Below are positions 30,303 through 32,982 of a DNA stretch of 64,000 nt, in pieces. The stretch covers positions 992,001 to 1,056,000 of the forward strand of contig CANLVO010000001.1 in assembly GCA_947494645.1 (NCBI GenBank). The letters are read 5' to 3'. Origin of the DNA: an uncultured Litoreibacter sp. (GTDB taxonomy: Bacteria > Pseudomonadota > Alphaproteobacteria > Rhodobacterales > Rhodobacteraceae). The notes beneath the pieces were generated by a model. It was not told where the DNA came from. It made no database searches and saw nothing but the letters and a program-made list of their open reading frames with translations. Made by a program: the position numbers and the translations under genes. How positions within the stretch are numbered: position 1 is the stretch's first letter; each line of letters opens with the position of its first letter.

Positions 30303-31733
30303 TTAGTGACGCTGTGCCAACTCCCAGCCACGCGCGAGGTCGCTTTGAAACGCGTCCCGTGCTCGCACGGCAACCTCTGGATCCTGCGCCCTCAGCAAAT
30401 AGGACGGGTGATACGTAACCAGTACCGCTACCCCGTCCGCCTTGTGCTCCACCCGTCCACGGCGGTCTTTCAGCGGCGCAGCGCTGCCCGTCAACGCAAA
30501 CGCCGCCGAGGCGCCCATCGCGATGATCACGCGCGGGCTGACATGGCGGATTTCCTCTTCCAGCCAAGGCTTGCAGGCGACGATCTCCGTCCGGTTCGGG
30601 CTTTGATGGATACGCCGTCGCCCACGCGCGACGTATTTGAAATGCTTCACCGCGTTGGTCACATAGGCCTGACCCCGGTCAATACCGGCGCTTTTGGCAA
30701 TCTCGTCAAAAAGCTGTCCTGCCGGGCCAATAAACGGACGCCCTTGCAGGTCCTCCATATCCCCCGGCTGCTCGCCCACGATCATCAACCGGGCGCTCGT
30801 CGGGCCCTCACCATGCACCGCTTGAGTGGCGTTACAATGCAGCGGGCAGCGCGTGCATTTGTCGACCTCCGCCACCAAGGCGGCCGTGTCGCGCGTCCAG
30901 GACGAGGCAAACCGCGCCTGCTGCGCCTGCGCCTGTTTGACCCGCGCAGGCGGCAGCGTGGGTGCAGCCTCAGCCATCGCGCGGGCGCGGGCAGGGGCCT
31001 CGGCAATCAATTCAGAAATCGCCGCCGCCTCCGGCATGTTCTTCCAGTACTTCTTCGGCATCTCCGAGGTCATGGCTTTGATCTTCAGCCGCGCCGGATT
31101 GAAGATGTTTTGAAAGTAGGTCACCCACAGTTGCTCATTGGCGTCCTCGGGCAGATCCGGGCGCGGGCAGTCCTCGACAAATCGCAACGCGCCATCTTCA
31201 AACACCGCAGAGACGTCCGGCGTGTAAATCCGCCAATCCATGTCGCCAAACCGCCGGGCAAAGAACTGCGCGGTCGGCTCAACCGTGTGATGCGTGGGCT
31301 CAAACCACGCGGCAAAAGACCGCCGCTGCGCGTCCGGGTCGCCGATCTCGCGAAACCGGACAAAGGCCTTCATCTTGTGCTGGCAGCGATGCACGTTCTT
31401 CTCCATCCGGCGCAGGGCGGCAAGGTCACGGTCGCCGCGGTCCGCCATCAGATGCGGCGCGTCGCGCAGCCGCCAGAGAAACGCGTAGAGCTTGGCAAAC
31501 CGGGCGGGGTCGCTGTGCCAGACCACGCTGTTGGCCATCGAAACGAACCCTTTTGGCACCGTGACCTCTCGCGCCTCGCCGCGCAGTTCGCCGCCGCCAA
31601 ACAGGTCTGGTGCCGTCTCCGTGTCGCCCCAGATCAGCGCCTCGGGCGGGACATTGCGCTGCAGGAACCCCCGCGCCGCGTCGCGCCACGCCTCCGCCAC
31701 GCCGATGCGCGGCATCTTCACAAAATGGCTCAC
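30303..31733 (-). CDS. udgX: DUF4130-UdgX fusion, covalent uracil-DNA glycosylase
   Basis: The 476-residue protein joins a DUF4130 domain (about residues 80-240) to a UdgX-type uracil-DNA glycosylase (about 285-476). The glycosylase has Cys293 and Cys296 of an iron-sulfur site, GEQPGDMEDLQGRPF (from 320), Cys387 and YHPS (441-444). It also has the UdgX-specific loop RRRIHQSP. His376 in that loop equals mycobacterial UdgX His109, which bonds covalently to the abasic sugar after uracil removal. The GTG start overlaps the stop of the radical SAM gene (GTGA), so the two proteins are made together. An SOS box before the operon implies LexA control. Confidence 0.93.
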   Translation of the reverse strand: MSHFVKMPRIGVAEAWRDAARGFLQRNVPPEALIWGDTETAPDLFGGGELRGEAREVTVPKGFVSMANSVVWHSDPARFAKLYAFLWRLRDAPHLMADRGDRDLAALRRMEKNVHRCQHKMKAFVRFREIGDPDAQRRSFAAWFEPTHHTVEPTAQFFARRFGDMDWRIYTPDVSAVFEDGALRFVEDCPRPDLPEDANEQLWVTYFQNIFNPARLKIKAMTSEMPKKYWKNMPEAAAISELIAEAPARARAMAEAAPTLPPARVKQAQAQQARFASSWTRDTAALVAEVDKCTRCPLHCNATQAVHGEGPTSARLMIVGEQPGDMEDLQGRPFIGPAGQLFDEIAKSAGIDRGQAYVTNAVKHFKYVARGRRRIHQSPNRTEIVACKPWLEEEIRHVSPRVIIAMGASAAFALTGSAAPLKDRRGRVEHKADGVAVLVTYHPSYLLRAQDPEVAVRARDAFQSDLARGWELAQRH

Positions 31734-32965
31734 AGCAAAGAAAGCTGCTCAGGCGGCGGCGCGAACCGTGCGCGCAAATCCGCGCTGTCCGTCAGCGCCC
31801 CCGGCGTCCAGCCGCCCGCCGTCACAAAGGCCCGCGCCTTTTTCATCGACCCGCCCATCCGGGTGATGTCCTCGTAGCGCACATGCCGGTGCCGCCGCGT
31901 GCTCAAAATCCGCCCGACGGTCTTGGTGCCAAAACCCGGCACACGCAGCAGCATCTCCCGGCTGGCGCGGTTCACATCCAGCGGAAACAGCTCCCGGTGC
32001 TGCAAGGCCCAGGCCAGCTTCGGGTCAATCTCCAGATCCAGATTGCCGTCCGGCGTGACAGACGTGATCTCGCCCAGCTCAAAACCGTAAAACCGCAGCA
32101 GCCAATCGGCCTGATACAGCCGATGCTCGCGCTGCAAGGGCGGGCTGATCAGCGGCAATTTGGCAGAGCTGTCCGGGATCGGCGAAAACGCCGAGTAATA
32201 CACCCGCTTCAGTTTGTAGCCCGAATAAAGCCGGGTGGACTGCCCCAAAATAGTGGCGTCGTTCGACCCATCCGCCCCGACGATCATCTGCGTCGATTGC
32301 CCCGCAGGCGCAAAGCGCGGCGGGCGTTTGCCGGTAAAGCTGCGATCCTTCGCCTCTTGCTTGCGCAGCCTGACATCCGCCATGGCCTTGCGAATTTGAG
32401 ATGGGTCTTTCTCGGGCGCGTGCTGGGCCACGGCGGCATCCGTGGGCAGCTCTACATTTATCGACAATCGGTCGGCCAGCAATCCAGCTTCCGCAATTAA
32501 CTCCGGGGCCGCGTCGGGGATGGTTTTCAGGTGGATATAGCCGCGAAAATTCTCTTCCTTGCGCAGCCGCCGGGCGATCTGAACCATGTCCGACATCGTG
32601 GCATCCGGGGAACGGATCACCCCAGACGACAAAAACAGCCCCTCAATGTAATTCCGTCGGTAAAAGTCGATCGTCAGCTTGACCACCTCATCCACCGAGA
32701 ACCGTGCGCGCGCCACATTCGATGACACCCGGTTCACGCAGTAAGTGCAGTCATAGATACAGAAATTCGTCATCAGAATTTTCAGCAAACTGATGCACCG
32801 CCCGTCCGGCGCATAGGCGTGACAAATCCCTGACCCCTCGTTTGAGCCCAGCGATTTACCCACCCGCGAGTCGCGTTTGGTCGAGCCTGACGAGGCGCAG
32901 GACGCATCATATTTCGCCGCATCGCTCAGAATGGCGAGCTTCTTCTCTGTCGAATATTGGACCAT
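31730..32965 (-). CDS. Radical SAM protein linked to uracil-DNA glycosylase
   Basis: The 411-residue protein has a radical SAM cluster motif CIYDCTYC (Cys69, Cys73, Cys76) after LKILMTNF. A helix-hairpin-helix-like region comes near the C-terminus (VNRASREMLLRVPGFGTKTVGRIL), which suggests DNA binding. It matches the family annotated as putative DNA modification/repair radical SAM protein, typically encoded beside a UDG-family protein. The reaction is unknown. Its ATG lies 3 bases from a consensus LexA box. It is the first gene of the operon. Confidence 0.92.
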   Translation of the reverse strand: MVQYSTEKKLAILSDAAKYDASCASSGSTKRDSRVGKSLGSNEGSGICHAYAPDGRCISLLKILMTNFCIYDCTYCVNRVSSNVARARFSVDEVVKLTIDFYRRNYIEGLFLSSGVIRSPDATMSDMVQIARRLRKEENFRGYIHLKTIPDAAPELIAEAGLLADRLSINVELPTDAAVAQHAPEKDPSQIRKAMADVRLRKQEAKDRSFTGKRPPRFAPAGQSTQMIVGADGSNDATILGQSTRLYSGYKLKRVYYSAFSPIPDSSAKLPLISPPLQREHRLYQADWLLRFYGFELGEITSVTPDGNLDLEIDPKLAWALQHRELFPLDVNRASREMLLRVPGFGTKTVGRILSTRRHRHVRYEDITRMGGSMKKARAFVTAGGWTPGALTDSADLRARFAPPPEQLSLL

Positions 32966-32967
32966 AT

Positions 32968-32982
32968 GTTCATGCTACGTTC
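32968..32982 (-). promoter_or_regulatory. SOS (LexA) box at the radical SAM-udgX operon
   Basis: On the coding strand this reads GAAC-N7-GAAC, equal to GTTC-atgctac-GTTC on the plus strand. That is an exact alphaproteobacterial SOS box. It ends 3 bases before the ATG, so bound LexA would cover the start region and block transcription. The same motif stands before uvrA. Confidence 0.85.

Follow-up and report, generated by a model that had tools for sequence, protein, structure and literature searches.

A LexA-box operon of a TIGR03916 radical SAM protein and a DUF4130-UdgX fusion in Litoreibacter, and its likely tie to the ImuA-ImuB-DnaE2 mutasome

The window analysed here, a stretch of 64,000 nucleotides from an uncultured Litoreibacter sp. 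(contig CANLVO010000001.1), contains on its minus strand a two-gene operon that is a well-supported member of a known, widely shared and uncharacterised SOS family. The first gene (31730-32965) encodes a radical S-adenosylmethionine (SAM) protein of 411 amino acids from the TIGR03916 family (rSAM_link_UDG; NCBIfam 572.1 bits, cut-off 343.5). The second open reading frame (ORF; 30303-31733, 476 amino acids, GTG start) encodes a fusion of an N-terminal DUF4130 domain (TIGR03915, 31014-31733; 196.5 bits, cut-off 112.25; PF13566, 129.7 bits) with a C-terminal UdgX domain (TIGR03914, 30303-31013; 313.7 bits, cut-off 189.95) of the uracil-DNA glycosylase (UDG) type; NCBIfam models the two domains separately. 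The two genes overlap by 4 bases (31730-31733), as had been read from the sequence in the initial annotation. An exact LexA (SOS) box of the alphaproteobacterial direct-repeat type, GAACGTAGCATGAAC, precedes the first gene on the minus strand (32968-32982; GAAC-N7-GAAC on the forward strand) and is kept before orthologues. The box itself had been recognised earlier; its distance to the ATG at 32965 is 2 bases rather than the 3 given then.

The exact pattern is common, with 63 copies in the genome and 137 copies of a reversed control pattern. As the genomic copies are fewer than those of the control, the box was rejected as stand-alone evidence, and conservation before orthologues was taken as the deciding test. 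The 15-mer of the window ranks seventh among the 63 exact sites when scored by a matrix built from 19 orthologous boxes. Three sets of loci were compared: the 21 genomes, own included, in which the radical SAM gene was found among 120 genomes of the same family; 80 named loci of radical SAM orthologues with 4-kb flanks; and 27 further loci from a phylum-wide draw, with only 1.5-kb flanks. In the family, which the initial annotation had proposed to search for the same box, 20 of the 21 genomes, among them that of the window, have an exact box no more than about 50 bases from the start of the match, and the remaining one has a box with one mismatch. The named loci have an exact box between 150 bases before and 10 bases after the start in 75 cases and a one-mismatch box in three; no alpha-type box was found in this range in two, titled Stenotrophomonas and Acidovorax. 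As a control, 1810 random stretches of 160 bases were drawn from the named loci; 5 contained an exact box and 134 a one-mismatch box, so that only exact boxes count. In the phylum-wide draw an exact box was found in 23 of the 27 loci, and the other four belong outside the class.

Boxes of other types take its place in some of the remaining loci. An exact CTGT-N8-ACAG is present in two of the four phylum-draw loci without an alpha-type box (L174 and L177), and the Caballeronia and Cupriavidus loci have perfect E. coli-type boxes. Firmicute-type sites were found in Pusillibacter, ahead of a small upstream ORF, and in a faecal phage-labelled scaffold (loci L144 and L149); the Acidovorax and Acetoanaerobium loci have imperfect sites. 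Since the box type differs by lineage at orthologous loci, the predicted LexA control is retained in several lineages while the LexA motif has switched type. SOS control of the operon, as judged from sequence, is strongly supported by the conserved box, the promoter geometry described below and the change of box type with lineage in several loci, and the membership in the LexA regulon that had been suggested at the outset is thereby upheld.

An exact forward box lies within 60 bases of the start in 69 of the 80 named loci, and its centre reads TATAxT in the majority. A TTG begins 18 bases ahead of the box in 24 of these 69 loci, giving a 17-base spacer to a -10 element inside the box, and the start codon is placed exactly 2 bases past the box in 30. 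The probable promoter of the window consists of a -35 element TTGCGC (33000-32995), starting 18 bases ahead of the box, and, after a 17-base spacer, a -10 element TAGCAT (32977-32972) within the box. The transcript is probably leaderless, with the start codon situated about at the transcription start, and would be blocked directly by LexA.

Other exact boxes in this genome precede uvrA, recA (L038), lexA (about 45 bases upstream), a pcrA/uvrD-type helicase gene (L031), pdeM (L005) and imuA (L047; ImuA assigned by tblastn). Neighbours were inspected for 25 of the 63 exact sites, several sites being intragenic. A high-scoring exact box is located between a PA0069-family radical SAM gene, presumably of the SplB-like (COG1533) kind, and a divergent corrinoid-protein gene (L035, G000:C1:958076-960090). 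The box with the highest score in the genome is found inside the radC reading frame or at its start (L046, G000:C2:434893-436907), and the regulon is therefore not defined by score alone.

SOS control of this gene pair is already published and is not new. We take COG4277 to be the same family as TIGR03916. A two-gene COG1573-COG4277 operon is named as SOS-regulated by LexA in Bacteroidetes in the portions of PMC8565304 considered here, which also cite work on a UDG repair system under SOS control in Verrucomicrobia and Alphaproteobacteria (Caulobacter). There, as predicted here, a UDG gene and COG4277 form an operon under LexA, and the system is read as UDG-based base excision repair; the words 'clamp' and 'UdgX' are absent from the main text of that paper. 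LexA control was also predicted for CAC3343-CAC3344 of Clostridium acetobutylicum in passages of PMC3828012, where a radical SAM gene of the same family name (CAC3343) shares a predicted LexA operon with one further gene, as it does here. Unlike the second gene of our operon, CAC3344 is described as being of unknown function, with no mention of UdgX in those passages. The damage-induced control that the initial annotation regarded as novel is thus already named in PMC8565304 and predicted in PMC3828012.

The first protein matches the radical SAM model of Pfam (PF04055, 39.6 bits, cut-off 29.5). Its SAM-cluster motif CxxxCxxC, already pointed out in the earlier reading, is formed by Cys69, Cys73 and Cys76 in CIYDCTYC (32738-32761) and is present in all 109 relatives compared (the window protein, 20 family orthologues, 79 named-locus proteins and 9 distant proteins; L066, with its open frame broken at 235 amino acids, was left out of the protein counts). 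A Foldseek search with an AlphaFold2 model of the protein (predicted local distance difference test score, pLDDT, 84.7) retrieved radical SAM enzymes with a best E of 6.2e-8, the nearest being biotin synthase and HydE, with ThiH also among them; a sequence search against solved structures gave at best E 0.14. The motif and the barrel place the protein in the radical SAM superfamily, and its SAM cleavage activity is only predicted.

Three further cysteines precede the SAM-cluster motif. Cys23, Cys48, His49 and Cys57 (within 32795-32899) are each conserved in 108 of the 109 relatives, which suggests Cys23, Cys48 and Cys57 as candidate ligands of an auxiliary iron-sulphur (Fe-S) cluster. A three-cysteine N-terminal site ahead of the SAM cluster resembles the auxiliary clusters of lipoyl synthase and MiaB. 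A cluster geometry derived from the model was dropped, because residues 21-37 and 41-57 are not confidently modelled (pLDDT below 50). We have not met the cysteine triad in print, in a literature that was not searched for it specifically. The sole exception to the triad is a distant relative from Gemmatirosa (L145:2393-3595, 39% identity), which retains a tail QLSLW; inspection by eye revealed no DUF4130 gene adjoining it.

At its C terminus the radical SAM protein has QLSLL (residues 407-411, 31733-31747), a relaxed match to the QLxLF or QL[S/D]LF consensus given for binders of the beta sliding clamp in the cited parts of PMC4549789 and PMC12309361. Within their final 30 residues, 101 of the 109 relatives have a relaxed QLxLF-type motif: besides the window protein these are 19 of the 20 orthologues from the family, 73 of the 79 proteins from named loci and 8 of the 9 distant ones. 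In the controls, 4 of 618 ends of other long ORFs and 6 of 952 internal 30-mers matched, and shuffling the tails left means of 0.4, 1.7 and 0.4 matches in the three sets. The eight tails missing the pattern look similar (QLSLAL and QMALAL twice each, QFELF, QGLLF, QRSLF and QLSFF), and the glutamine of the motif is conserved in 108 of the 109 relatives. Residues 407-411 are unstructured in the model (pLDDT below 50), so that the relaxed motif lies in an exposed tail, as in clamp clients. The C-terminal tail shows signs of being a clamp-binding element, as predicted from its motif. The word 'clamp' does not appear in PMC8565304, PMC3765255 and PMC10776899, and a thin search of the literature did not bring up such a tail in this family.

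The C-terminal domain of the second protein aligns to the Mycobacterium smegmatis UdgX structures (6IOD and others, E 7e-51), and all eleven active-site positions named for that enzyme in the cited passages of PMC10359453 and PMC10776899 are matched. It contains GEQPG, TNAVK, RRRIH and HPSYLLR. The RRRIHQSP R-loop with its UdgX-type histidine had been recognised in the initial annotation, correctly so; the histidine is residue 376, and a covalent His-DNA adduct is predicted. The solved M. smegmatis chains of about 205-229 amino acids consist of the UdgX domain alone, unlike the present protein, in which the domain is fused behind DUF4130 and encoded downstream of a radical SAM gene. In tblastn searches the UdgX domain has a match in 72 of the 80 named loci, and the crosslinking histidine is retained in 71 of these 72 domains, R107 in 72, E52 in 71, N91 in 71, Q53 in 70 and D59 in 68; H178 and R184 are conserved in all 70 domains whose match extends that far. 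The sole exception in the histidine, E52 and N91 belongs to Acetobacter nitrogenifigens (L075, from about 5233 onward, downstream of the radical SAM gene). This UDG domain has no motif A, TNAV asparagine, R-loop histidine or HPS motif; the radical SAM gene, DUF4130 and the exact box of the locus are intact. A clamp motif was found in none of 70 UdgX proteins. The DUF4130 fold had no PDB match at E<1e-3, and a DHH-phosphatase-like fold (best E 0.025, TM-score 0.32) was not accepted for it.

The constant companion of the radical SAM protein is DUF4130 rather than UdgX. In a set of 299 proteobacterial genomes, own included, where presence means a score over the cut-off, the radical SAM family was found in 53 genomes, DUF4130 in 56 and UdgX in 52. 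DUF4130 is present in all 53 radical SAM genomes (phi 0.97); UdgX is present in 40 of them, and the other 13 have DUF4130 without UdgX over the cut-off. Conversely, 12 UdgX genomes and 3 of the 56 DUF4130 genomes have no radical SAM protein of this family. Among the 80 named loci, a complete-looking UdgX domain lies near the radical SAM gene in 70, and a DUF4130-type gene without a downstream UDG domain was found in seven (L077, L084, L087, L088, L123, L125 and L131). An alpha-type box is retained in six of these seven, that of L077 with one mismatch, and UdgX exceeds the cut-off elsewhere only in the genome of L123; three of the seven are metagenome-assembled genomes, where absence is weak evidence. 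Two loci of the window's own family (L180 and L181) likewise have the radical SAM gene, DUF4130 and exact boxes with no UdgX over the cut-off. In Parabacteroides and Pusillibacter an annotated TIGR03915 protein, and on a phage-labelled Acinetobacter contig a 'probable DNA metabolism protein', is encoded next to the radical SAM gene, and none of these stretches contains a UDG. The steady core of the system seems to consist of the radical SAM protein and DUF4130, with UdgX as an optional member. Where UdgX is missing or dead, the other parts persist, usually together with the box, and this speaks against an enzyme devoted to UdgX adducts.

Genes of the ImuA-ImuB-DnaE2 translesion mutasome recur beside the pair. 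ImuA and ImuB were called by tblastn between loci, by Pfam IMS domains in two ImuB proteins and by adjacency to dnaE2; the NCBIfam ImuA model proved too strict, with no match in L047 and L103 and scores far below the cut-off in L090, L124 and L184. The 4-kb flanks contain imuA/imuB and/or dnaE2 in 12 of the 80 named loci, and eight of these 12 have dnaE2 downstream on the same strand. Seven loci (L103, L106, L109, L111, L117, L119 and L121), titled Erythrobacter, Erythrobacteraceae, Alteraurantiacibacter or Sphingomonadales, have the order imuA-imuB-[radical SAM]-[DUF4130-UdgX]-dnaE2 on one strand; in L103 and L106 dnaE2 is confirmed by NF004225 over the cut-off. L097 and L110 have imuA-imuB upstream and then run to contig edges, which cut the UDG domain of L097, and L113 has dnaE2 downstream only. 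In Henriciella (L090) and Methylopila (L124) the imu and radical SAM operons are divergent. Separate boxes stand ahead of imuA and ahead of the radical SAM gene in the nine loci with imuA. The phylum-wide draw adds imuA or imuB beside the pair in L160 and L162-L166. At the genome level, DnaE2 is found in 45 of the 53 radical SAM genomes and in 69 of the 246 others; in 8 of the 53 the distance between dnaE2 and the radical SAM gene is at most 2.5 kb. In the three DUF4130 genomes without the radical SAM protein (L183, L184 and L185), DUF4130 is directly beside imuA-imuB, and two of the three have UdgX. Because colinear and divergent arrangements occur in different gene orders, a functional tie of the pair to the mutasome is likely. 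The pair resembles ImuA-ImuB-DnaE2 in being SOS-boxed and is physically linked to it in those 12 named loci; by sequence, the pair is itself no polymerase component. The link was partly anticipated, since the available portions of PMC3765255 predict DUF4130 to be an enzyme related to mutagenesis and link it to UDGs and to radical SAM proteins of the SplB-like kind.

We know of no settled physiological role of UdgX and of no known chemistry for TIGR03916 and DUF4130. The explanation that we prefer, with a probability of roughly one half, is that the operon is SOS-inducible and processes DNA lesions in cooperation with the ImuA-ImuB-DnaE2 mutasome. In undamaged cells LexA would sit on the box over the -10 element and the start of the probably leaderless promoter and keep both genes off; RecA-triggered cleavage of LexA would then turn both on, along with recA, uvrA and imuA. 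The radical SAM enzyme would dock on the beta sliding clamp through its C-terminal QLxLF-type tail and may contact DNA through a helix-hairpin-helix (HhH)-like region. Together with DUF4130 it would act by radical chemistry at stalled or translesion-copied DNA, and we infer that the substrate is a lesion or a modified base. The fused UdgX could be an optional extra that removes uracil, caps the site via a bond between His376 and deoxyribose, and shields it from breakage. A more specific version is put forward tentatively: TIGR03916 may be a previously unrecognised radical enzyme that belongs to the SOS mutasome, docks on the clamp and binds an auxiliary Fe-S cluster through Cys23, Cys48 and Cys57; with DUF4130 it would process damaged template in place of ImuB-DnaE2 synthesis or in preparation for it, while the UdgX add-on would cap uracil or apurinic/apyrimidinic sites in the same intermediate. 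The most useful new lead is this clamp-docked radical SAM-DUF4130 unit tied to the mutasome: the core pair, the clamp-type tail and the imu linkage direct attention to translesion intermediates with the clamp and the mutasome, and to udgX-negative backgrounds.

Several observations weigh against this explanation. The link to the mutasome does not hold everywhere: in 68 of the 80 named loci, and in the window, the search revealed no imu gene near the pair; 8 of the 53 radical SAM genomes lack a DnaE2 scoring above the cut-off; and the Parabacteroides, Pusillibacter, Acetoanaerobium and Acinetobacter stretches gave no ImuA or ImuB match. A recognisable box was not found in Stenotrophomonas L128, Parabacteroides L142, Acinetobacter L148, L151 and L170. 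The tails had already been viewed when the clamp pattern was written, the canonical QL[SD]LF is present in only 32 of the 109 relatives, and the motif of the window protein itself ends in LL. Both Pfam matches of the HhH-like region are below cut-off (HHH, 17.5 bits against 24; HHH_3, 16.7 bits against 27). All co-occurrence counts are inflated by relatedness, and independent gene arrangements were not counted on a tree.

One alternative is that the radical SAM protein directly reverses a photolesion or an oxidised or saturated pyrimidine in the manner of spore photoproduct lyase, independently of the mutasome. SplB is a radical SAM enzyme of DNA repair and SplB (COG1533) is SOS-regulated according to the cited part of PMC8565304, while PMC3765255, in the portions considered, mentions SplB-like partners of DUF4130 and thymine modification; the radical SAM fold, the HhH-like region and the SOS control of our protein would fit the same role. 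Unlike SplB, however, the TIGR03916 protein has three extra invariant N-terminal cysteines, the HhH-like region and the clamp-type tail. No spore photoproduct lyase family was among its 15 NCBIfam matches up to E=1, in a library not checked for such a model, and the PA0069-family gene of this genome has a box of its own. We consider direct reversal unlikely.

Many radical SAM enzymes are protein-modifying maturases, and a second alternative is that the radical SAM protein modifies DUF4130 post-translationally, with DUF4130 as the enzyme that meets DNA. Such a relation would accord with how common maturases are in the superfamily, with the co-occurrence in 53 of 53 genomes and with the usual adjacency of the genes (others intervene in, e.g., L118, L127, L178 and L179). 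The clamp-type tail and HhH-like region point instead to DNA as the partner of the radical SAM protein itself, and three of the 56 DUF4130 genomes do without that protein; we regard maturation of DUF4130 as rather improbable, somewhat more so than direct reversal. The attractive idea of the initial annotation, that the radical SAM enzyme modifies, edits or releases the UdgX-DNA adduct, draws on the adjacent and overlapping genes, on UdgX in 40 of the 53 genomes and on the crosslinking histidine in 71 of the 72 UDG-type domains, but has become very improbable, since the constant companion is DUF4130, 13 of the 53 radical SAM genomes have it without UdgX, 12 UdgX genomes have no radical SAM protein, the DUF4130-only loci mostly keep the SOS box, and L075 keeps the box, the radical SAM gene and DUF4130 beside a UdgX domain without catalytic residues.

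In four loci a hemerythrin (PF01814) gene is placed between the radical SAM gene and the DUF4130-UdgX gene (L118:5277-5765, L127:5598-6212, L178:1932-2522 and L179:2006-2428), and in L178 and L179 further genes intervene. The interposed hemerythrin possibly protects an oxygen-sensitive cluster. The radical SAM gene is also present on ten phage-labelled records (e.g. L149), eight of which are unannotated faecal scaffolds; some of these may be bacterial DNA. Upregulation of the radical SAM gene under desiccation is described for an Acinetobacter in the cited portion of PMC13130816. Elsewhere in the window, uvrA is preceded by an exact SOS box at 1384-1398, 54 bases before the gene.

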